In this document: in pieces, positions 33,393 through 44,292 of the stretch
Position numbering within the stretch: position 1 is the stretch's first letter
Layout of the letters: every line of letters begins with the position of its first letter
Source: Brevundimonas sp. NIBR10
Lineage (GTDB): Bacteria; Pseudomonadota; Alphaproteobacteria; Caulobacterales; Caulobacteraceae
Reading direction: 5' to 3'
NCBI RefSeq assembly: GCF_027912515.1
Contig: NZ_CP115464.1
Coordinates: 3,139,501-3,203,500 of the forward strand
DNA: 64,000 bases
Program-made: the position numbers and the translations under genes
The notes under the pieces: generated by a model
The model's input: only the letters and a program-made list of their open reading frames with translations
What the model was told of the DNA's origin: nothing
The model's database searches: none

Positions 33393-34157
33393 ATGACCAC
33401 AACCTCTCCCAATCAACTCCTCGCCGACCGTATCGCCCTTGTCGTCGGCGCCTCGCGCGGTATCGGCTATGAGAGCGCGCTTGCCCTGGCCAGGGCCGGT
33501 GCCCACGTCGTCGCGACGGCCCGGACGCAGGGGGGGCTGGAAGAGCTCGATGACGCCATCTATGCCGCGACCGGCAAGCACGCCACGCTCGTCCCCTTCG
33601 ACCTCGTGGACGGCGGCGGCATCGACCGGCTGGGCGGCGCGATCTTCGAGCGGTTCGGCCGGCTGGACATCTGGGTCCACACCGCCGCCACCCTGGGCGC
33701 CGCCGGCCTGACGCCGGTCTCGCATCTGGACCCGCGCGGCTGGGGCAAGATCGAGAAGACCAACCTGACCGCCGTCTATCGCCTGATCCGGTCGCTGGAG
33801 CCGCTGTTGCGCCAGTCCGACGCCGCCCGCGTGATTCATCTGACCACCAGCCTGACCTCCGTGCCCAAGGCCTTCTGGGGCCCCTACGCCGCGACCAAGG
33901 CGGGCGCCGAAATCATGATGAAAATCTGGGCCGACGAGATCGAGAACACCTCGATCCGCGTCGCCGTTCTCGATCCCGGCCGGATGCGCACCGCCATGCG
34001 GGCCCAGGCCTTCCCGGGCGAAGACCCCCAAACCCTGCCCCATCCATCGGAGATCGGACCCCTGGTCGTCGAACTGGCCCGACCCGACCTGACCCCGCCC
34101 CTGACGGTCGCCTTCAAGGACTGGAACGCCGCCCTGCCGGTGTCGGCCCTGATCTAG
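33393..34157 (+). CDS. SDR family oxidoreductase
   Basis: The 254-residue short-chain dehydrogenase has the NAD(P) motif VGASRGIGYE (about 18-27), HTAATLGAAG in place of NNAG, the Ser in TTSLTSV and the YAATKAG catalytic pair. The altered NNAG motif and the short C-terminus place it outside the well-studied branches. GGAAG precedes the ATG by 9 nt. The substrate is unknown. It converges on the SEDS/PBP operon with a 4-bp overlap of ends. Confidence 0.88.
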   Translation: MTTTSPNQLLADRIALVVGASRGIGYESALALARAGAHVVATARTQGGLEELDDAIYAATGKHATLVPFDLVDGGGIDRLGGAIFERFGRLDIWVHTAATLGAAGLTPVSHLDPRGWGKIEKTNLTAVYRLIRSLEPLLRQSDAARVIHLTTSLTSVPKAFWGPYAATKAGAEIMMKIWADEIENTSIRVAVLDPGRMRTAMRAQAFPGEDPQTLPHPSEIGPLVVELARPDLTPPLTVAFKDWNAALPVSALI

Positions 34158-34504
34158 TCGATCTCAGCGGCCTGGCCGCAGGATGCATCGCCGGCCAGCG
34201 GGATGGTGACGACCTCCCCGGGCGTGGGCCCGTTCACCGCCTCGATTCGGGCCTTCACGAAGGCGTCGTCGAACGGGTAGCGACGGAAAAAGGCGGACCA
34301 GCTCTTGAACTCGCCGGGGACCGCGTCGGTGACACAGGCCGCGCCCGACGCCGCCTCGACCCCGCCGCGACCGCCAAACGCCATCACGGCGGAAATCAGC
34401 GCCACGGCGCACAGTCCGACGACGGGCGCGAGCCTGCCCCACCCGGTCGGCACGGCTCGCGATCTGGACCTCTGTCCTTTCGGCACGCGACTGCCCCGGC
34501 TCAT
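34154..34504 (-). CDS. small single-pass membrane protein, last gene of the SEDS-PBP operon
   Basis: The 116-residue protein has a basic N-terminus, one membrane helix (24-43) and a 70-residue extracytoplasmic part with two cysteines (57 and 109) and the segment FKSWSAFFRRYPFDDAFV. Its ATG overlaps the stop of the transpeptidase gene by 4 bp. I recognise no family. Position and topology suggest an accessory subunit of the transpeptidase or the SEDS protein. The first residues MSRGSR resemble the MSRSR start of the preceding gene product. Confidence 0.75.
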   Translation of the reverse strand: MSRGSRVPKGQRSRSRAVPTGWGRLAPVVGLCAVALISAVMAFGGRGGVEAASGAACVTDAVPGEFKSWSAFFRRYPFDDAFVKARIEAVNGPTPGEVVTIPLAGDASCGQAAEID

Positions 34505-37110
34505 GGCGCGGTTGCCTCCTGCACCAGCCAGGCGCGGACCACCGCCGAGGCCAGCAATGCCCCCGCCATGTCGGTCGCCGGTGCTTCTCCGTCATGGCTC
34601 TCCAGATTGATGACGATGGCCAGGGCCCGGTACGGCGGCACACCCGGCACGGCCTTCGCCTCTGCCACGGCCGACGGATAGCGGCCGATCACCAGCGCGA
34701 TCCCGTGCCCCACCCCGACCGCAGCGGACGCCTCCAGCGTCAAGTCCGTCACCGCATGGGGCCGGGCCAGCAGGTCGCGATCGATCCGGCTGCGATAGGC
34801 CGGCGACATGGCCCCCAGCGCAGCATCGAGGCTTGCCCGCGATCCCGCCTGGCCGGCGATGTCTGCACAGACCGGCCGCATCGTGATCGGCGCGGTGATC
34901 CTGCGACGCTCCGGATCCCAGGTCAGACCGCACTGGCGCTCGGCCAGCCGCACGGCCGCTGCCCGCGCCGGCGACGGCGCCACCCCGATCTCCAGCGTCG
35001 GCGTCCCGGTCTTGGCAAAGACGCGATAGTCGCCGGGCGGCAGGCTGGGCCGCAACCGCGCCGCCGTGCCCCGCACCGCCGGATCGCGGCCGGTCACGGC
35101 CTCCATCCCCTGCAATACCAGATTCCATTCCGCCGGATGGGCAATCATGCGCACGGCGGGCAGCGGCAGGCGGTCCGGCTGGGTCAGCCGCGCATTGACA
35201 GGCCGCCGCGTCACCATCCGCGACACGATCTCGGCTACCTTGATCGAGGACCATCGCGTCCGGTTCCCGCCCAATATGCTCATCAGATAGTCGCGATGCA
35301 GATCGACCAGGTCGTTCAGACCGAGGTTGCCCTCCTCCAGAAAGATCCACCCGGCCCCCTGTTTCGGCGTCTCCGCCAGACCGGGCCACAGATTGGCCGA
35401 AGACGTCGCCCCGCCCGCCTCGAACTCGGTCAGGGCGCCGAACAGGTCGTTCATCGTCACGCCCCAGGACAGCGGCGGCCCCGTGCGTCCCTCCAGCCGA
35501 TAGCCGTCCGGCCCGGAGGGCCCGATCGGCCGCATGGTCTCGATCATCGGCGGCCGGCACAGCCGCGTCACCCCGATCGCATAACAGTCCGACCCGTCGA
35601 CCAGCGCCGGATCGGGTACGGCCGGCGCATCACTGAGCGCCAGCAGCATCAGCCCCACGGCGTAGCGATTGCTCGACCGCGCCAGGAAGCTGACCATGTC
35701 CAGATCACCCGACACCGTATCCCTGAACGGCGCCTCGACCCCCACCACCCCCTTGAAGTCGCCCATGGCGGTCAGCTTCAGCCCCGCGAGTTCCCGATGG
35801 GCTTGCAGGATCGCCATGGTGATCGGTGCCTTGGCCACCGACCCGACAGGCTGGGCCGTGAAGTTGTGATTGCGGTCGTCCATCCCGGCGCGGGTGAAGA
35901 TCGAGGCGTCGGGCGGTCGCTGCGGCCGGCTGGCGATGGCCAGCACCTCGCCCGTATTGGCGTCCATCAGGGTGATCGAGGCCCGCGCCGGCAGGCCCGC
36001 TGCATTCAGCAGCCGGCCGGGCGGCCCCAGCACCGTCTCGGCCGCGTCCTGCAACCGTGCGTCCAGCGTCGTCTCGATATCGCCGAGGCCCGGCCGACCC
36101 GCCACCAGCGTCTCTACCCCCCGGCTGAAGGCATCCAGCCCCCAGGCCCGCGTCCGCCTGGCCCCGGGCACAGGGGCCGGCGAGATCGCCTCGTTCGCCC
36201 CGCCGTAGTCATAGGCGTCCCGCAGCATCGCGCCGCCCGGTCCCGCCGCCTCGAAGGTCAGGGTCTCGCCGGCCCTCAGCCGCGCATAGGCCACCCCGTC
36301 AGCCGCCTGAAGCCGGCCGCCGATGCGCACCGCCAGCCGGCATTCGGGATGGGCTCGCAGCCGCACCAGGGCGTCGCCGCGCAGGTCGGTGCCGATCCGC
36401 ATCACACTGGCCACCTCGCCGACACAGCCCGCCTTGGTCGCGCGGAACCGATAGCGCCAGGCCGCGTCCGCCGTCGCCGGGGTCTCGCCGAACAGCTCGA
36501 CTGTCCCATCGCGACCGTTGGGCCGGAACCGCATCGGCCGCTCACGGCCCGGTCCCGCGCCGGCCTCCGCGACGCGCCTCGTCAGGCCGACGACCCGCGC
36601 CGTGCCGGGCCGGTACAACAATCCTCCGCGCCAGTTGTCCGGCGCATTGAACGGCCCAGCCACCTGATGGGCGGAAGGATCGACGCCTACGATCTCGATG
36701 GTCTCGCGGCCGTCGCGCTGGAACCGATAGTCCGAGACCCGCCAACGCTCGGGTGCTCTCAGGTCGCCGAACAGATAGGACTCGCGCTTGAACCGCTGCC
36801 AGACCGGATCGTCGGGCGCCAAGGGCGACTCGACCACGGCATATCCCCCGCCGGTCTCCCGCATCTCCAGCCAACCTCGCGCGACAACCAGGTCGTCGAT
36901 CAGGGCATTGTACCCCTCCGCCCGCTCGTCGCCCCCCGACGCTACCGCACCACCGGCGACGCGTGGGATCGGATTGGTCACGGTCAGAACCTGGGGCGCG
37001 ACGCAAATCAGCAGCACCAGCAGCGCGCCCAGCGCACCGCCCCAAGAGACCCGCATCGCCTTCAGCGACGGCAGGGCCATCCGGGCCTTCGGAATGCGCG
37101 ACCGGCTCAT
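34501..37110 (-). CDS. class B penicillin-binding-protein-like transpeptidase
   Basis: The 869-residue protein has one N-terminal membrane helix (22-43), a long extracytoplasmic domain (45-340) that I do not recognise, and a C-terminal penicillin-binding transpeptidase domain (345-869). The domain opens with TTLDARLQDAAETVL and TLMDANTGEVLAIASRP. All three active-site motifs are intact: SxxK at 424-427 (SVAK), SxN at 479-481 (SSN) and KTG at 700-702. Two inserts, near 500-620 and 710-830, enlarge the domain. The start at 37110 overlaps the SEDS-like gene by 4 bp. A SEDS gene directly followed by its transpeptidase partner is the usual rodA/pbpA or ftsW/ftsI logic. Confidence 0.88.
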   Translation of the reverse strand: MSRSRIPKARMALPSLKAMRVSWGGALGALLVLLICVAPQVLTVTNPIPRVAGGAVASGGDERAEGYNALIDDLVVARGWLEMRETGGGYAVVESPLAPDDPVWQRFKRESYLFGDLRAPERWRVSDYRFQRDGRETIEIVGVDPSAHQVAGPFNAPDNWRGGLLYRPGTARVVGLTRRVAEAGAGPGRERPMRFRPNGRDGTVELFGETPATADAAWRYRFRATKAGCVGEVASVMRIGTDLRGDALVRLRAHPECRLAVRIGGRLQAADGVAYARLRAGETLTFEAAGPGGAMLRDAYDYGGANEAISPAPVPGARRTRAWGLDAFSRGVETLVAGRPGLGDIETTLDARLQDAAETVLGPPGRLLNAAGLPARASITLMDANTGEVLAIASRPQRPPDASIFTRAGMDDRNHNFTAQPVGSVAKAPITMAILQAHRELAGLKLTAMGDFKGVVGVEAPFRDTVSGDLDMVSFLARSSNRYAVGLMLLALSDAPAVPDPALVDGSDCYAIGVTRLCRPPMIETMRPIGPSGPDGYRLEGRTGPPLSWGVTMNDLFGALTEFEAGGATSSANLWPGLAETPKQGAGWIFLEEGNLGLNDLVDLHRDYLMSILGGNRTRWSSIKVAEIVSRMVTRRPVNARLTQPDRLPLPAVRMIAHPAEWNLVLQGMEAVTGRDPAVRGTAARLRPSLPPGDYRVFAKTGTPTLEIGVAPSPARAAAVRLAERQCGLTWDPERRRITAPITMRPVCADIAGQAGSRASLDAALGAMSPAYRSRIDRDLLARPHAVTDLTLEASAAVGVGHGIALVIGRYPSAVAEAKAVPGVPPYRALAIVINLESHDGEAPATDMAGALLASAVVRAWLVQEATAP

Positions 37111-39932
37111 GACGCCCGCCCCGGTCGCAACCGCCGCACCATCCGTCCCAGCCCCGCCTCCCAGGCGAAGGCGTCCTTCGCCCACAGACCGGCGATCCCG
37201 ACATAGGCCAGGACGATCAGGATCGTCCCCTCCAGCAGGTCGCTATCCGACGCCGCCGCCAGCAGATAGACGTTGCGCCCCGTGAACGGCACGAGCTGCA
37301 GATTGGCCAGCACGATATAAGCGTCCACCCCGAACACGACCCACAGCGCCATGAAGCCCGCGATCTCATAGCGACCGCGCAGCGTCCCATCCCGTCGCGT
37401 CCGCCGCGCCAGAGCGACGGGCACCACGACCAGCAGGATCAACAGGGCCGCCGCCGTCACCCGACCGAACGGCGAGATCAGATGGATGGCCGACAGGTTG
37501 TCGTTCAGATGCACGGGCCTCAGCACCGTCAGATTGGCCGGTGTCAGATAGCCTCGCCCAAACAGGGTGTCGGTGTACCCCGATAGCTGGCGCGAGATGA
37601 CCCTCAGATCCTCGGCCTCGCTCGCCCCCGACCGCAGCAACCGCTCGGGATCCAGCCGCATCCAGACCCGCAGCAGGGTCGGGTCCTCGTCCACCGCCTG
37701 TTCCAGGATCTTCAGCGCCTGGGCGTCGCTGACCGCGTCACGGGCCTGGGCGATATTTCGGTCCCGGTTCTCGGCGAACCCCAGCGAAAACGCCCCCGCG
37801 ACCAGCACCCCCAGCAGCAGCGCCGCCAGCCCCGCCGCCGGGGCCGACCAGATCATCCGCGTTTGCAACGGCGACCCGCGCCCGAACCGGCTCCACGCCA
37901 CCCAGGCCGCCATCCCCGCGATGGGCAGGGCGACGATCACATAGCCGTTGTCCTTGACCAGCCCCGGCAGCACCGCGAGCATCACGAACAACAGGCCTGC
38001 GAACACCAGCCCCAGCCGCATCAGACGCCGGGGATCCGCCCGCAACGCTTCGGCTAGCAGCCCCGAGAACCCCAGGATCATCGCCGGCGTATAGATCACG
38101 CTGACCGCGAACCCGAGGCCGGGGATCCGCTCCTTGATCGACAGGAATCCCAGCACCGCCCGCATTGCCGCCGTCGCCCCGAACAGCACCGGCCAGGTCT
38201 GGGCCGTGTCAGTTTCGGCCTCGGCTTCGGCTCCAACCTCGGCATCCGCATCCGGCAGGCCTCGATCCGGCCAGAAGCCGACCACCGCCGCGCCGAGGAT
38301 CGCCAGAACACCTCCAACGAGGGCCAGTCCGCCCGGCACCGCGCCCGCCAGACCGCCCTCCGCCGCGACGGGCGCGCCGTACAACCCGCCGACCACCAGG
38401 GCCACGCCCGCGAACAGACCGAGCCCGACCGCCCACGGCCTGCGTCCGTCCTTCGGCGGCACAAGCAGCAGGAACAGAACCGGCAAAACCACATAGGCGA
38501 TCGCCGCCTCGCCGATCAGCCGGCCGGGCGCCAGGGTCTCCGGATCGGCCGCCGCCCCCGACACCGCGATCACGAACCTCAGCGCAAGCAGTGTCTGGAA
38601 CACGCAATAGATCGACCAGTGGACCGCGCGCTCCGTCCACACGCCGCGCTGCAACCACAGCACGCCCCCGGTCCAGGCCAGGATCAGCACCACCAGCGAC
38701 CAGGGCGCCCCGAACCGGGCCATGGTGAAGGTCGGCGCGACACCGCCCTCACCCTTGATCACACTGGATTGGAACCGCGCGCAACTGGCCGCGCGCGGCA
38801 GGGTCGGGTGCTGATCCAGCCCCGCCGCCACCGGCCCACCCAGGATCGGATAGCGGATATCCGCCGTGGTCAGTCGCCCGTTGGTCGGACAGGTCGCCAC
38901 CACCTCGGTCGCCGGGGTCTGGAGCCGAACCGAGATACCCCGACCCTGCTGCTCGACCAGAAGGGCCCGCCGCTCCTGTAACCGCCCCGCCGGCTGCCCG
39001 GCCTGCGAAAATCCATAGGTCCGCAGGTCCCAGACCGTGACCGTCGAACCCGACGCGACCTCGACCGACCGGCCGTTCAGCCCGTTCGCCCCACCATAGG
39101 CGCTGGCCCGACGCGGCGTCTCGCCGGGCAGGGCGACCCAGAGCTGTGGGTCCAGCGCCAGCAGCCGCCAGTCCGCGCCCCGCCAGCCGCCCTGCTGATA
39201 CAGCACCGACCTCAGCCGTCCGGCGGCTGCGTCCGCCTCCAGATACCGCTCGACGGGATAAACGGCCTGCGACGCCCGCCACGGCCGGGGCGCGGCGATG
39301 AAGGGGAAGGGCTCGCGGCGCGGAAAAGTCTCGCCGTCTGCTGCGCCGTACTCGGCGACCTCGACCCGGCCTTCGGCGTCGAGCCGACCTGGCCGGAACC
39401 GCACCGCACCGGATCGGCTCAGCACACGCCAGCGCGCGCCCGGGCCTTCACAGGCGCCGACGCACAGGGCGCTGCCGCGCGGAAACGGCTCCGACCCGAC
39501 GAAATCCTTATCGATCGAGACCACCGAGACGGTCTCGTCCCTTGGCGTGGGCGGCCGCATGATCAGTTCAGCGATGCCCTCACCGTCCGGACCCGCCGAA
39601 ACCGGCCGCAACGACGCCAGCCCCGCCGGCGCACCCTCGACGACCAGCCCGTCCTCGGGCCCGCCGCCGATGGTCAGCCGGTCGCCGCGCCCGCCGAGGT
39701 CGAGGCTCTCGAGCGTCAACCGGATCTGGCCGAACCGCGCCGTCTGGCCTCCGGCGCGATCGATCAGCACCGCGCTGCCGATGGCAATCAGCACGATGGC
39801 CGGGGCGACCAGCACCCCAAGCACCGCGACCCGTCCCGACAGCGGCGCAGGCTGTCCTGACGACTGGCCCGACCCCGACCAGATCAGCCAGGCCAGCAAC
39901 CCCAGGGCGACGGCGACCAGAGCTCCGGTCAT
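37107..39932 (-). CDS. divergent SEDS (FtsW/RodA-like) glycosyltransferase with large extracytoplasmic domain
   Basis: The 941-residue membrane protein has two N-terminal helices (4-18, 36-57), an extracytoplasmic beta-rich domain (about 60-400), and about ten helices (408-917), broken by an acidic linker (557-578). The last part fits SEDS proteins: KDNG at 660-663, RVWMRLDP at 755-762 as the start of loop 4, LFGRGYL at 790-796, HLNDNLSAIHLISPFG at 808-823 and LQLVPFTGRNVYLLAAASDS at 878-897. Asp811 sits where FtsW and RodA have their catalytic Asp. Known FtsW/RodA have only 370-420 residues and lack the N-terminal domain. It should polymerise lipid II or a related substrate. Confidence 0.8.
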   Translation of the reverse strand: MTGALVAVALGLLAWLIWSGSGQSSGQPAPLSGRVAVLGVLVAPAIVLIAIGSAVLIDRAGGQTARFGQIRLTLESLDLGGRGDRLTIGGGPEDGLVVEGAPAGLASLRPVSAGPDGEGIAELIMRPPTPRDETVSVVSIDKDFVGSEPFPRGSALCVGACEGPGARWRVLSRSGAVRFRPGRLDAEGRVEVAEYGAADGETFPRREPFPFIAAPRPWRASQAVYPVERYLEADAAAGRLRSVLYQQGGWRGADWRLLALDPQLWVALPGETPRRASAYGGANGLNGRSVEVASGSTVTVWDLRTYGFSQAGQPAGRLQERRALLVEQQGRGISVRLQTPATEVVATCPTNGRLTTADIRYPILGGPVAAGLDQHPTLPRAASCARFQSSVIKGEGGVAPTFTMARFGAPWSLVVLILAWTGGVLWLQRGVWTERAVHWSIYCVFQTLLALRFVIAVSGAAADPETLAPGRLIGEAAIAYVVLPVLFLLLVPPKDGRRPWAVGLGLFAGVALVVGGLYGAPVAAEGGLAGAVPGGLALVGGVLAILGAAVVGFWPDRGLPDADAEVGAEAEAETDTAQTWPVLFGATAAMRAVLGFLSIKERIPGLGFAVSVIYTPAMILGFSGLLAEALRADPRRLMRLGLVFAGLLFVMLAVLPGLVKDNGYVIVALPIAGMAAWVAWSRFGRGSPLQTRMIWSAPAAGLAALLLGVLVAGAFSLGFAENRDRNIAQARDAVSDAQALKILEQAVDEDPTLLRVWMRLDPERLLRSGASEAEDLRVISRQLSGYTDTLFGRGYLTPANLTVLRPVHLNDNLSAIHLISPFGRVTAAALLILLVVVPVALARRTRRDGTLRGRYEIAGFMALWVVFGVDAYIVLANLQLVPFTGRNVYLLAAASDSDLLEGTILIVLAYVGIAGLWAKDAFAWEAGLGRMVRRLRPGRAS

Positions 39933-39939
39933 CCGGCGC

Positions 39940-40593
39940 TCACCCCTCGGCCTCCAGATGGTCGGCCCGGTGCTCCGACACATAGAGCCGCCGATAGGCC
40001 CGCCGCACCCGCCGCAGGAACCGCGCGCCGCTGACCACCACCCCCGTCAGTCCCGCCAGCAGCGCCAGCGACAAGATCGCCGATCCGATCGGCGTCAGGG
40101 TCGTCGCCATGGGGGCCAGGATCATCGCCTTGCCCGCGCCTCGGCACAGGTCGGCGTGTTCCCGCAGATACCAGACCAAGGCCCGCCTCTCGTCGCCCGT
40201 CCGCCGCGCCGTCACGGCGCACAGGTTCTCGTCCAGCCACTCACGCGCCTCGGCCGTCCGGAACAGCCCCTCGGGTGCCGCGAAATCACGCCCCGTGTTG
40301 ATCGCCGAGAGCACGGGTTGCAACACGGCCGGCGACGGTTCGTCCGACGTGTCGAGGAAGGCGCGCGGGGCCAGCCTGTCCGCCCCCCGTCCCGCCTCGG
40401 CCCGCTCGAAGTCCACCGGCCCCTGCGCCCCCTCCCCCGGGAACGCCCCGAACAGGATCGCCGCAAACACCAGAACCAGAACCGCGCCCAGCGCCGCCGC
40501 CCCCATCTCGGGCCGGGCGTCGGCGCGCATCAGGACCGTGTCGATCAGCCACCGCCGCCCCCGGCTCACCGGATCATTCCCCCGTCCGCTCAT
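39940..40593 (-). CDS. two-TM membrane protein of the SEDS-PBP-GTPase operon
   Basis: The 217-residue product has two membrane helices (about 31-51 and 164-190) flanking a 110-residue extracytoplasmic loop with Cys125 and Cys150, probably a disulfide pair. The C-terminal tail is cytoplasmic and basic to acidic (RRVRRAYRRLYVSEHRADHLE). ATG 40593 overlaps the GTPase stop by 4 bp; the upstream frame to 40719 is a shadow of the GTPase gene. No family is recognised. A topology that spans the membrane and follows the GTPase gene makes it a candidate link between the cytosolic GTPase and the periplasmic synthase. Confidence 0.78.
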   Translation of the reverse strand: MSGRGNDPVSRGRRWLIDTVLMRADARPEMGAAALGAVLVLVFAAILFGAFPGEGAQGPVDFERAEAGRGADRLAPRAFLDTSDEPSPAVLQPVLSAINTGRDFAAPEGLFRTAEAREWLDENLCAVTARRTGDERRALVWYLREHADLCRGAGKAMILAPMATTLTPIGSAILSLALLAGLTGVVVSGARFLRRVRRAYRRLYVSEHRADHLEAEG

Positions 40594-42233
40594 CGAAACT
40601 GATCCCCGCGACGGACTTTTCTCAGACGTCCCTGATTCCGGAACCGCCGCAGCGCCCGCGCCGCGCCGATGGCGCGCCAGTCGGCCTCCGTGAGGTCGGT
40701 GTCGGACGCCCGCGCCCACTCCATCCAGCGCAGCACCGCCGCCACTCCGCGACGGCCCAACGTGTAATCCACCACCGTCCCTGCCGCCCCACCGTCACCA
40801 TGGCCTCTGAACGCGGTCACGAAGTCGAACTTGCTCCACCGGAACGCCCCGACCGCACTGGCGAGCGCGGGCCGATAGCGATCGACGATCTCCTCCGGGT
40901 CGCGGTCGAACTCCTGCAAGGCCTCGATGTCGGCGGGTGCATCGCGGTACAGGAGGTCCAGCACGGATTTCGGCGCACCGTCTTCGCCCGCCCCGCTCGA
41001 CACCGCCTGGGCCTCGATCACATCGGCCTTGGACAGGGCCACGAAGACCGGCTTGGACGAGGGCTTGTAGGCTTCGGAATCCAGATGCCGGATCAGATCT
41101 TCCGACGTCATGGCCGCGATCTTGCCAACCTCGACCCCGTGGCTCAGCAACGACAGGACCACGTTCAGCTGGGCAACATGGGCCGTGAACCGCTCCAGTC
41201 GGGGATTGTCGGCCGCCAGCGCCCGCGCCTGCCGCTCCAAGTCGCTCACCTCGGCGCCGCCGGCCTGGCGCGAGAACAGGGCGCTGGCCCGTTCGCCCAG
41301 CAGCACCTCGTCGGCCGGCACCACGATGATCAGGGCCTTGCACGCTTTGAGCGCCAAAAGCTCCCGCTCCCGCCCCAGGAAGCGCCCCTCGGCCAGGGAG
41401 ATGAACCGCTCGCCCGGAATGTCGATCACATAGAAGGACGACGGCGCGTCATGCCGCGTCGAGCGGAAGAAATGCTCGCTGACGCCGTTGGTCCGCCCGA
41501 CATTGTCCCACTGGGCAGCATGGGGCGGGATCGCCGCGTGCCGGTCGTCGCGCGAGGTGAACAGTTCGAACTTCAGCCGGTTCAGGAACCAGGTCTTTCC
41601 GGCCCCGGGAAAGCCCAGCAGGCCGACGACATTCGCGTTCTTGTCGATCAACTCCTGGATCCGCTCGGCCGACATCTCGGGCTCGACGACGCGGGGGGCC
41701 GCCCCCGACGGACCGGCCTCGGCCAGGGTCCGGTTGAACCGTTCCAGCACCGCCGCATCGTCCGCCACCGTCTCGGCGACGCCCGGCACCGGCACCGCCA
41801 CCTCGGCCGGCGCGGGCGGCGGATCGGCGGGCGCGTCCACCGGCTCGGCGAAACTGGGCGTGATGACGGGCGCGGGGTCCAGATCGGCCGTCAGCTTGCG
41901 GATCTCGTCATGGATACGCGCGGCCTCTTCCGCCGACGGCGCGGGAGCCGCCACCTCGACGGAACGAGGCCCGACTGTCGGCTCTGGCTCCGGTTTCGGC
42001 TCAGGCTCGGGACCTAGCTCCGGCTCCGGCTCCACGAGGACAAGCGGTGGCTTCACCGCCGTCGGCTCAGTCAGCGGAGCCACCTCCACGGCAGGGGCCT
42101 CGACCCGCACCGCCGGTTCCGTCGTCACGCCCAGCAGCCGGTTCACCGCCTCGGCGCGTTGACGCTCTCGGCGACACTGCGGACATTCGCCGTCGGTCGC
42201 CTCGTACCGGCCATGGCTTTCGCAGACGCTCAT
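40590..42233 (-). CDS. zinc-ribbon P-loop GTPase-like protein
   Basis: The 547-residue cytoplasmic protein starts with a zinc ribbon (Cys4, His7, Cys17, Cys20), followed by a Pro/Glu/Ala-rich linker (40-185) and a P-loop domain. Walker A/G1 is GFPGAGKT (207-214), G3 is DIPG (271-274), G4 is SKAD (401-404), and FDFVTAF near 475 suits G5. The set is complete for a TRAFAC-type GTPase and looks closest to the double-GTPase/GTPase-associated families described in bacterial conflict systems; that link is a resemblance. Two kilobases of operon follow with cell-wall enzymes. No membrane helix is present. Confidence 0.8.
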   Translation of the reverse strand: MSVCESHGRYEATDGECPQCRRERQRAEAVNRLLGVTTEPAVRVEAPAVEVAPLTEPTAVKPPLVLVEPEPELGPEPEPKPEPEPTVGPRSVEVAAPAPSAEEAARIHDEIRKLTADLDPAPVITPSFAEPVDAPADPPPAPAEVAVPVPGVAETVADDAAVLERFNRTLAEAGPSGAAPRVVEPEMSAERIQELIDKNANVVGLLGFPGAGKTWFLNRLKFELFTSRDDRHAAIPPHAAQWDNVGRTNGVSEHFFRSTRHDAPSSFYVIDIPGERFISLAEGRFLGRERELLALKACKALIIVVPADEVLLGERASALFSRQAGGAEVSDLERQARALAADNPRLERFTAHVAQLNVVLSLLSHGVEVGKIAAMTSEDLIRHLDSEAYKPSSKPVFVALSKADVIEAQAVSSGAGEDGAPKSVLDLLYRDAPADIEALQEFDRDPEEIVDRYRPALASAVGAFRWSKFDFVTAFRGHGDGGAAGTVVDYTLGRRGVAAVLRWMEWARASDTDLTEADWRAIGAARALRRFRNQGRLRKVRRGDQFR

Positions 42234-43765
42234 GCGGCAGGCTCCAGGATCAGGGCGACGGCGCGAAGGCCCTCGATGAAGTCGGGCCGCGTCATGCTCG
42301 TCTGCCGTCTCAGCACCGGACGCAGCGCCCGCTCGGCATAGGCGGCGCGATCGATGCGCGGATGATCCCGGACCAGTCCGGCGATCTCGACCCGGGCCAG
42401 ACCGACGTCCACCGCGTCCGCCGGTCGCTCCATCAGGGCCGCGACCCCGGCGGCGGCATAGCGCCTCGACAAAGGCTCGCCGCCAGACAGACGCCGGATC
42501 AGGCCGACGGCCAGCGCCCGCGTTTCGCCCTCCAGCCGGGGCCGCCCCAGAACCTTGCCCAGCATGGTCATGGTCAGGTCGGGACCGAGCGCCGCCACGG
42601 CCGCCACGCCGGCTGCGGCGACCCGTTCAATCAGCCCGACCTCCAGCGCACGCGCCGTCGCCGCCGGCCCCAGCCGTGCCACCGCTTCGATCGGTGCCGC
42701 CTGAACCACCTCGCGTGCCGCCACATCCCCCAGAGCCACCTCAGTCAGCCCCGCTTCGAGATAGGCGTCGCCGGCACCCGCCTCGTCGGTCGCCGCCGCC
42801 AGCCGGACCAGGGCCTGACCCGCCGCCCGGCTCAAGGCCTCCGCAATCTCTTCATCGGCAGGAGCGCCGCTCACCGCCCTAGATATCAACGCCAGTCGAT
42901 CCGGGGCCGTCAGGGGTGCTGCAAATTGCAGCAGCGCCAGGGCCGCGCTCCGATCGGGCAACAGCGCCTGATACGCCGGCTTCCAGCCCGTATCGGCCGC
43001 CTGCGAGACCCCCGCCACCGCCGTCTGCACCGCCTGCCAAGCGCGCCACGACGCCGGCTCCGACTGGGGCGGAGCCATGATCCGTCCGCCACTGAGCTCG
43101 ACCGCCGCCCGGTCCCCGCCCTCGACCCGCCGAGGCTCACGCGGTTCGGATTGGGGTCGAACGATCAGCCGGAACGCCGCGTCCGGATCGAACCCGCCAG
43201 AGGGCCGCAAACTGCCCGTGGTCGCCCAGCCGTCGATCCGCGCCTGCTGTACGCGCGGCGAAATCCCGTCCAGCGCCGCGATCGCGACCGCCTCGGGATC
43301 GGCGTCGTCGAGCAAATCCAGAACCTGATCCCGCCACTCCAGCCCGAATGCCGCCAGCATGTCCGGCCCCGCCGTCAACAGCCCGCCGATCGACAGGCGT
43401 GTCACCCCGAACGGACTCCCGTCCGGCTCGGGCAGGCTGCCCAACAGTCGATGCGCCTGCCCGCCCAGTCGCGCGACCTCGGTTTCCGACAGGAACAGGC
43501 CGTTGGCCACCGCGATACTGCCCAGCTCGCCCGCCCCGATGAACCGGGCCCGCCACAGCACGGCCGGACCACCCGGCCCCTCCAGCGGTGTCAGCGCCGC
43601 GAACCGCGTCAGCCCCAAATCAGCCCAGGCGGCCAGGGCAAGGGCGAAATCTTCCAGCCGGGGCCGCGCCCTGGCGAAATCGTCGGCCTCCAGCGAATGA
43701 TGCAGCACCCCGTACGACCGCCCCCGGTCGCGTGGCCCGATGCTCAGCGTCGGATAGTCGCTCAC
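42230..43765 (-). CDS. GTPase-partner protein, helical, unknown function
   Basis: The 511-residue protein has no membrane segment. Residues 1-160 are alpha/beta with a YGVLHHSLEADDF start and a WRARFIGAGELGSIAVANG segment. The rest (200-511) is mostly helical with many Ala/Leu repeats that look HEAT- or TPR-like without a clear consensus. Position next to a GTPase and the early pattern recall GTPase-associated protein 1 (GAP1-N), but the usual YGxxxGH motif is not seen, so I keep this as a weak hint. The stop overlaps the GTPase start by 4 bp. Confidence 0.7.
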   Translation of the reverse strand: MSDYPTLSIGPRDRGRSYGVLHHSLEADDFARARPRLEDFALALAAWADLGLTRFAALTPLEGPGGPAVLWRARFIGAGELGSIAVANGLFLSETEVARLGGQAHRLLGSLPEPDGSPFGVTRLSIGGLLTAGPDMLAAFGLEWRDQVLDLLDDADPEAVAIAALDGISPRVQQARIDGWATTGSLRPSGGFDPDAAFRLIVRPQSEPREPRRVEGGDRAAVELSGGRIMAPPQSEPASWRAWQAVQTAVAGVSQAADTGWKPAYQALLPDRSAALALLQFAAPLTAPDRLALISRAVSGAPADEEIAEALSRAAGQALVRLAAATDEAGAGDAYLEAGLTEVALGDVAAREVVQAAPIEAVARLGPAATARALEVGLIERVAAAGVAAVAALGPDLTMTMLGKVLGRPRLEGETRALAVGLIRRLSGGEPLSRRYAAAGVAALMERPADAVDVGLARVEIAGLVRDHPRIDRAAYAERALRPVLRRQTSMTRPDFIEGLRAVALILEPAA

Positions 43766-44292
43766 TGCGCGGGCCCCGAGACGGGCGGCGAGGCCCCATC
43801 GACCGGGGCCTGCGGCGTCTGGCCCGTCACTGCGGCCGGATCGACCACGGGGCTCGGCACCGCCGCGACCGCCGCAGGCGCTGCCCTGTCCGGCAGCATT
43901 CTGGCCGTCACGAACCCGCCGACGAACAGCAGGACGGCGGCCAGAACGGCAACCCCCGCCCCGATCACCAGGGTCATCTGCGACGACCGCCCCCCCAGGC
44001 CCGCCGTCTGCCCCGCGCCCGCCGCCCGCGCGATCCGGATCAGCTCAGGCCCCACGGCGTCGAGCACGGCGTCGGCCAGGGCTTCGGCCGAAGGCGTCCG
44101 GCTTTCGATCTCCCGCGCCGCCTGGGCCGTCCGGCGATCCACGGCCTGCACGAGGGCCGCCGACAGCGCCAGACCCGGATCGCGCGCCACCGCCTGCCCT
44201 GCCTCATTGAGGATCAGCCGCGCCAGATCGGCCCGCAACCCGTCCAGGTCCTCGGCGTCGCTCACGGCGTTTCCGGTCTCGACCTGGCTCAT
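43762..44292 (-). CDS. single-TM protein, first gene of the SEDS-PBP-GTPase operon
   Basis: The 176-residue protein has a helical cytoplasmic N-terminal part (1-105), one membrane helix (106-133, LVIGAGVAVLAAVLLFVGGF) and an extracytoplasmic Ala/Pro/Val-rich tail (134-176). It overlaps the next gene by 4 bp. It may anchor the cytoplasmic GTPase and its partner to the membrane. I do not recognise a family. The 105-bp gap to dctA upstream is the most likely place for the operon promoter, but no convincing -35/-10 pair stands out. Confidence 0.72.
   Translation of the reverse strand: MSQVETGNAVSDAEDLDGLRADLARLILNEAGQAVARDPGLALSAALVQAVDRRTAQAAREIESRTPSAEALADAVLDAVGPELIRIARAAGAGQTAGLGGRSSQMTLVIGAGVAVLAAVLLFVGGFVTARMLPDRAAPAAVAAVPSPVVDPAAVTGQTPQAPVDGASPPVSGPAQ

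Follow-up and report, generated by a model that had tools for sequence, protein, structure and literature searches.

What does a bacterium do with an operon in which a GTPase gene is placed upstream of a pair of candidate cell wall enzymes? This question is raised by seven minus-strand genes, running from 44292 to 34154, in a 64,000-nucleotide stretch of the Brevundimonas sp. NIBR10 genome (the window, positions 3139501-3203500 of a 4.0-Mb single-contig genome). In order, they encode a protein with one transmembrane segment (TM), a helical protein, a GTPase (P0003), a two-TM linker, a SEDS-like protein (P0001), a class B penicillin-binding protein (PBP, P0002) and a small last protein, numbered here as genes 1 to 7. 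SEDS-PBP pairs such as FtsW-FtsI and RodA-PBP2 are core antibiotic targets, and how cells switch these pairs on is an open question. The initial annotation, made from the sequence alone, had read the operon as a third, dedicated wall synthase controlled by the GTPase. What we find is a conserved block in which a class B PBP with invariant motifs stands directly behind a divergent SEDS relative, with the GTPase and membrane proteins upstream of this pair. We favour, with a probability of roughly 55%, the reading that the operon is a GTPase-linked third SEDS-like/class B PBP pair, whose mechanism we infer.

The Gene Block Is Conserved in Seven Loci

Seven loci were compared: the window, L004, L006 (genome G044), L022 (G872), L023 (G906), L024 (G910) and L025 (G942). 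Across them the SEDS-like and PBP proteins are 26-95% identical, and sequence matches place the PBP gene directly behind the SEDS-like gene in 7/7 loci, the two being adjacent as in canonical pairs. A two-TM gene is located upstream of the SEDS-like gene in all seven; it was assigned by sequence in the window, L022 and L004 (where only the gene end is on the contig), the only two loci that gene 4 matches by sequence, and by position and two hydrophobic segments judged by eye in L006, L023, L024 and L025. The GTPase gene lies upstream of it in all six loci whose contig extends there, although the L023 GTPase gave no phmmer match and was assigned by position and motifs. Gene 2 precedes the GTPase gene in 5/5 loci reaching that place (the L025 copy by position and 61% identity to the L024 copy), and a one-TM gene stands first in the five loci that reach it (window, L006, L023, L024 and L025; position and architecture by eye). 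For gene 1, the comparison of P0005 with P0014 gave no sequence match. The small last gene is present in four of six testable loci, by sequence in the window and L004 and by position and one TM judged by eye in L006 and L023; it is absent from L024 and L025, and the L022 contig ends at that place. Conserved synteny, which the initial annotation had named as a point to be checked, is therefore found for the pair as well as for the GTPase.

Because the homologues keep the same order in other genomes, the operon is not a chance pile-up of open reading frames; it is a real gene block, and its anatomy is secure. The identity matrices of five operon genes correlate at 0.97-0.99 (10-21 pairs), with close pairs driving much of this; in L024 and L025, for example, the PBP and SEDS-like proteins are 75-80% identical. 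The family profiles were built from the same sequences, and their matches to these loci are no independent proof. Compared with L004, a Brevundimonas contig of a metagenome-assembled genome, the dN/dS values of the three operon genes complete on that contig are 0.15 for the SEDS-like gene, 0.08 for the PBP gene and 0.17 for the small last gene, so that these genes are under purifying selection.

The distribution of the block is patchy. With P0001 as query 1/41 relatives (the own genome only) and 2/385 genomes of the class (own and G044) were positive. A three-row alignment (A1) gave 1/96 genomes in the order of G044, which was G044 itself, 2/398 in the phylum, one of them a rejected weak match, and 5/99 in the family, the own genome counted. 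A seven-row alignment (A5) gave 2/289 genomes in the class and 2/200 in the order. The genome samples overlap, and since the large scans scored only 2-4 first-look candidates per genome, all these counts are to be read as lower limits. Named genome contigs, scanned with a pattern, yielded 32 pattern matches with one relative among them, L004, whose SEDS-like protein is 90% identical to P0001 and which is the only named relative found. On plasmids, tblastn with P0001, P0002, P0003 and P0008 gave no match, and the 147 pattern matches in viral contigs included no relative. The rejected weak match in the phylum, an N-terminal one in genome G768 (E 3.5e-4), was taken as chance, as its region (L014) is without any operon protein or profile match.

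Gene 6 Encodes a Class B PBP

P0002 passes the transpeptidase model PF00905 with 25.4 bits (cut-off 22.1; hmmscan), and this model matches 5/7 homologues at E<=1 (best 7.2e-6). The active-site motifs S449xxK452, S504-S-N506 and K725-T-G-T, which had been described as intact, are so, and they are invariant in 7/7 members. The N-terminal TM spans residues 51-69, and hmmscan gave no GT51 match. When the seven-member PBP profile was compared with the PDB, 58 distinct sequences matched at E<=1, led by PBP2X (1.8e-7), MrdA and FtsI. The AlphaFold model of P0002 is weak (mean pLDDT 45); nevertheless, Foldseek matched it to E. coli PBP3 with E 9.5e-9, and among the 50 matches listed 49 are labelled as PBPs, the other being a chain from the FtsWIQBL complex. 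The query-normalised TM-scores of these matches are low (0.24-0.29), which fits a partly modelled protein.

PF03717, which we take to be the PBP dimerisation domain, has no match in P0002 at E<=1; since class B PBP model matches do not all have this domain, its absence lowers the case for class B membership but does not exclude it. In NCBIfam, pbp2_mrdA scored best (37 bits, cut-off 455). Counted from the KTG motif, the tail measures 170-192 residues in five of the seven proteins and 71-79 in L024 and L025. Judged from motifs, profiles and the model, P0002 is a class B PBP and a predicted transpeptidase, and the transpeptidase check named in the initial annotation came out in its favour.

Gene 5 Encodes a Probable Distant SEDS Relative

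P0001 begins with two N-terminal TMs, followed by a domain of about 350 residues, probably extracytoplasmic, and a polytopic core with loops resembling the extracellular loops 4 and 5 (ECL4, with D828, and ECL5) of SEDS proteins. The curated SEDS model PF01098 matches 0/7 members at E<=1, Pfam contains nothing SEDS-like for any of the seven, and a PDB profile search with the family gave no match at E<=10. In the own genome the curated model finds only two sites, both canonical SEDS genes. One, at 1893800, is 1.3 kb from a PBP match at 1895095; the other, at 1622957, is 7 kb from a PBP match at 1629501. These are presumably the RodA and FtsW pairs.

The initial annotation had named a lack of SEDS profile matches as refuting; taken literally, this applies to PF01098, and the SEDS-like label depends on profile-profile comparison with controls. 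For this comparison the SEDS-like family was trimmed to P0001 residues 425-940, and the SEDS profile was made of 30 canonical SEDS from 31 loci, which represent only part of the matches listed (L049 was left out, as its frame is unclear). Local hhalign gave a score of 45.0 (P 9.1e-5, probability 59%). The reversed controls reached 19.4 and 19.2, 60 block shuffles at most 26.5 and 60 full shuffles at most 21.9; other families scored 18.5 (30 Wzy_C proteins), 15.3 (SDF) and 12.1 (MFS). SEDS against Wzy_C gave 57.9. With E. coli FtsW added (31 SEDS sequences) the score was 43.2 and the probability 50%. The 59% probability is modest, but the SEDS score is well above every control.

Among the 223 aligned pairs, 25 positions are conserved (>=95%) in SEDS and 28 are invariant in the SEDS-like family. 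Ten are both, and seven of these carry the same residue, while register shifts give a mean of 0.26 and a maximum of 3. The common residues, SEDS-like first and E. coli FtsW second, are D678-D197, R772-R246, G809-G278, G811-G280, D828-D297, G840-G308 and G902-G371. D828 is invariant in 7/7 members and aligns with FtsW D297, the putative catalytic Asp of ECL4. All seven also carry H-x-x-D-N in a loop of 93-108 residues and have FTG(R/K)N within the final loop region, like ECL4 and ECL5 of SEDS; the loops were placed by a crude hydropathy measure that overlooks late TMs of L023 and L024. The alignment starts at FtsW residue 154, past the region with G134-A-R-R-W138, Q147-P-S-E150 and K153. In ECL5 the S-Y-G-G motif is lost, with FtsW S378, Y379, G380 and G381 aligned to A909, A911, S912 and D913. 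In the accessible text of PMC8765783, complementation fails with the dominant-negative E. coli FtsW variants D297A, Y379A and G380A, of which Y379A and G380A are lethal, and succeeds with H295A, T296A, P368A and S378A. The comparison suggests that P0001 is a distant SEDS relative outside the curated PF01098, with the putative catalytic Asp kept and catalysis not assured.

The GTPase and Its Neighbours

The G motifs claimed for P0003 are present (GFPGAGKT, DIPGE and LSKAD). Its homologues keep DxPGE in 6/6, the Lys of KAD in 5/6 and the N-terminal Cys/His pairs in 4/6 cases, with the start of the L022 protein at a contig end. P0003 just passes MMR_HSR1 (22.9 bits, cut-off 21.9) and stays below the DO-GTPase2 cut-off (18.7 vs 27 bits in a test with PF19993/PF19975). 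DO-GTPase2 is matched by 5/6 members at E<=1 (best 9.3e-4), and hhalign of the GTPase family against DO-GTPase1 and DO-GTPase2 scored 46.2 and 40.4 with a reversed score of 15.8, where each of the two was represented by two sequences from control systems and no other GTPase family was included. A Glu in the Walker B/G3 region is given as a DO-GTPase feature in the accessible part of PMC7159879. P0003 appears to be a GTPase with DO-like features; its link to the DO-GTPases, one of two families suggested beforehand, is weak but positive, and membership is not established.

The other suggested family, GAP1, was not recovered. None of five gene-2 proteins matches a GAP1 model in hmmscan (for GAP1-N2, by Pfam hmmscan only). 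Against GAP1-N1, gene 2 scored 13.25 in hhalign and 13.14 when reversed; its N-terminal part scored 11.2, where 100 shuffles reached up to 16.7. Pfam and NCBIfam scans assigned gene 2 to no recognised family. According to the accessible part of PMC7159879, GAP1 is usually encoded downstream of the GTPase, unlike gene 2, which lies upstream.

As a control, neighbourhoods of PF19993 matches were used, one region from each of eight out of nine genomes with a match (G227 and a second G193 site were left out, and region L071 is cut by a contig end). In these eight regions the SEDS-like, PBP, gene-2 and linker profiles have no match at E<=1, and the GTPase profile has a single one (L070, 0.0087). 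Two of the regions, L069 and L070, contain genuine GAP1-N1/DO-GTPase1+2/GASH systems, that of L069 with a phosphoesterase gene and that of L070 with a phosphorylase-type gene and a TniB gene nearby. As GAP1 was recognised in both, hmmscan does detect this family where it is present.

NCBIfam gave no match at E<=0.1 for P0001, P0004, P0008, P0011 and the L023 GTPase. The linker is larger in L006:5010-6830 (+) and L023:6953-8635 (+), with 606 and 560 aa and weak TPR matches, than in the window (217 aa). At L024:15327-17228 (-) and L025:2630-4537 (+) the block begins with a gene for a protein of 633-635 aa that has a hydrophobic segment and an extended C-terminal region. This protein matches the protein-kinase model PF00069 weakly, with E 0.022 and 14.6 bits in L024 and with E 0.0043 and 16.9 bits in L025 (cut-off 31.7), and might be a pseudokinase member of the operon.

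Comparison With Described Systems

Like the FtsW-FtsI and RodA-PBP2 pairs, the operon has adjacent genes, the putative catalytic Asp with six further invariant positions, ECL4/ECL5-like loops and complete transpeptidase motifs. It differs from them in that its protein is outside the curated SEDS model, has lost S-Y-G-G of ECL5 and carries the extra domain of about 350 residues; moreover, the pair is tied to a GTPase and membrane linkers, and it is accessory and rare. Additional SEDS proteins per genome, some tied to wall stress, are also described for Enterococcus, Listeria and Clostridioides, but in the accessible text these are named FtsW/RodA homologues and no GTPase module is mentioned.

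The DO-GTPase/GAP1 systems (PMC7159879), as far as the accessible text describes them, share with the operon a zinc-ribbon-like GTPase N-terminus, the Glu after the G3 Asp and membrane-linked partners, and kinase-like genes occur in two of the operon loci. That paper locates the GAP1-N2 systems close to the membrane and describes peptidoglycan-binding, tubulin, HSP70 or kinase components in them (Kaur et al., 2020). The operon differs from these systems in having no recognisable GAP1, GASH or FNIII protein and in the position of gene 2 upstream of the GTPase. The main text of PMC7159879 contains none of the words SEDS, FtsW, RodA, penicillin and transpeptidase. SEDS combined with DO-GTPase was found in no paper in open-access full text, the accessible parts of PMC11237479 and PMC12130487 mention no such operon, and the open-access literature, as far as accessible, yielded no report in which such a GTPase is combined with a SEDS-like protein and a class B PBP. 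This agrees with the initial annotation, to which no described system of this composition was known. The operon appears to be an additional, so far undescribed machine for building or sensing the wall.

A Proposed Third SEDS-Like/PBP Pair and Its Alternatives

If the operon is a third SEDS-like/class B PBP pair, the SEDS-like protein would polymerise a lipid-linked precursor, either lipid II or a relative of it, and the PBP would cross-link what is made. The GTPase, anchored to the membrane by the products of genes 1 and 4, would in its GTP-bound form switch the pair on for a special task, e.g., repair or growth under envelope stress, and the pair would work beside the two canonical SEDS of the genome. 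Hence, of the initially proposed wall synthase under GTPase control, the conserved block with a PBP and a distant SEDS stands; synthesis and control are plausible steps that we infer. In a tentative version, to which we give limited credence, the SEDS-like proteins form a new subfamily that has an extracytoplasmic domain of its own and a class B PBP as partner, and a dedicated cytoplasmic DO-type GTPase directly gates polymerisation or sensing; this would join wall synthesis to a class of GTPase-centred systems whose members have until now been assigned to biological conflict.

Several results weigh against a third synthase. The operon is absent in most relatives, and for this reason it is not essential in general. 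In global mode hhalign gave a probability of only 5%, consistent with the N-terminal half of P0001, which has no alignment to SEDS. At 18 of the 25 positions conserved in SEDS, the SEDS-like family lacks the same residue in invariant form; FtsW F298, N359 and G380 are replaced by invariant N829, Y889 and S912, and of D297, Y379 and G380 the family keeps D297 only, with Y379 and G380 changed. The AlphaFold model of P0001 is poor (pLDDT 39), and of the 50 matches that Foldseek listed for this weak model none is a SEDS and none reaches E<=0.001. Contact between the GTPase and the pair is presumed.

The main rival, which we regard as unlikely, is a sensor of wall status. Here the SEDS-like protein would bind precursor without polymerising it, the PBP domain would bind peptide or beta-lactam, and this state would pass inward via the TM linkers to the GTPase as output switch. 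The sensor has to be kept in view because the ECL5 residues are lost, together with most conserved SEDS positions, and a large extra extracytoplasmic domain is added; the kinase-like TM gene that heads the block in L024 and L025 (weak PF00069) would fit signalling. However, even at 26-40% identity the proteins retain the Asp of ECL4 and a full set of transpeptidase motifs, beyond the needs of mere binding, which is why an enzyme is preferred, and no output regulator gene was recognised in the block. SEDS proteins are distantly related to Wzy-type polymerases, and P0001 could also polymerise another envelope glycan from a different lipid-linked donor. Its distance from canonical SEDS, with no Pfam match in seven members, and the altered substrate-side residues would agree with this, but the profile is near SEDS and not near the 30 Wzy_C proteins (45.0 vs 18.5). 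In addition, the SEDS-like protein is always paired with a class B PBP, an enzyme type that acts on peptidoglycan stem peptides, and this PBP has all the transpeptidase motifs; no glycan-synthesis genes were recognised in the block, so we consider another glycan improbable.

Finally, the operon could be a DO-GTPase-type conflict (defence) system with the wall enzyme pair as effector. The DO-GTPase-like GTPase, the patchy distribution and the GC content of 71.5% against about 67% in the flanks are in line with defence, as are the kinase-like genes in two loci, which recall one GAP1-N2 system theme in the accessible part of PMC7159879. However, PADLOC matches among nine proteins are weak and at chance level (PifA 0.022 for P0003, mad8 0.033 for P0010), no GAP1 was recognised, and the operon does not resemble the genuine GAP1-N1 systems of L069 and L070; we hold this explanation to be very improbable.

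Should the operon be a third pair, an accessory pair with its own GTPase would provide a compact and dispensable model of a cytoplasmic nucleotide switch controlling wall synthesis in the periplasm. The SEDS-like proteins would also gain a branch that is missed by the present Pfam and NCBIfam models.

Operon Anatomy and Surroundings

The coordinates of the seven genes, confirmed by open reading frames and translations, are listed in Table 1. Spans are deduced, with gene starts partly taken from internal Met positions in the translations. Nearly all genes had been described as overlapping by 4 bp, and such overlaps were found at 5/6 junctions; at the remaining one, the two-TM and the SEDS-like gene are 7 bp apart when the latter is started from the ATG at 39932, which yields the 941-aa protein of the initial annotation.

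Table 1. Genes of the operon in the window.
Gene	Position	Strand	Product
1	43762..44292	-	176 aa; one predicted TM (106-124), helical N-terminal part, Pro/Ala-rich tail
2	42230..43765	-	511-aa soluble helical protein, adjoins GTPase
3	40590..42233	-	547-aa GTPase, DO-GTPase-like, N-terminal Cys/His pairs
4	39940..40593	-	Two-TM linker protein, 217 aa from ATG at 40593
5	37107..39932	-	941-aa divergent SEDS-like protein (P0001)
6	34501..37110	-	Class B PBP (P0002), 869 aa from ATG at 37110
7	34154..34504	-	116-aa protein, one TM

A scan limited to sigma-70-type promoters found none near 44292, and no terminator was found there. The neighbours of the operon are a short-chain-dehydrogenase-type gene and a dicarboxylate-type symporter gene, with no wall genes. 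The GC content of the operon is 71.5%, compared with 67.3% and 66.5% on its two sides, as might be the case for a gained block. The flanks vary among the loci. Cytochrome bd genes are located near the L024 block, and close downstream of the latter a gene at L024:3891-5465 (-) reads by eye like a D-alanyl-D-alanine carboxypeptidase.

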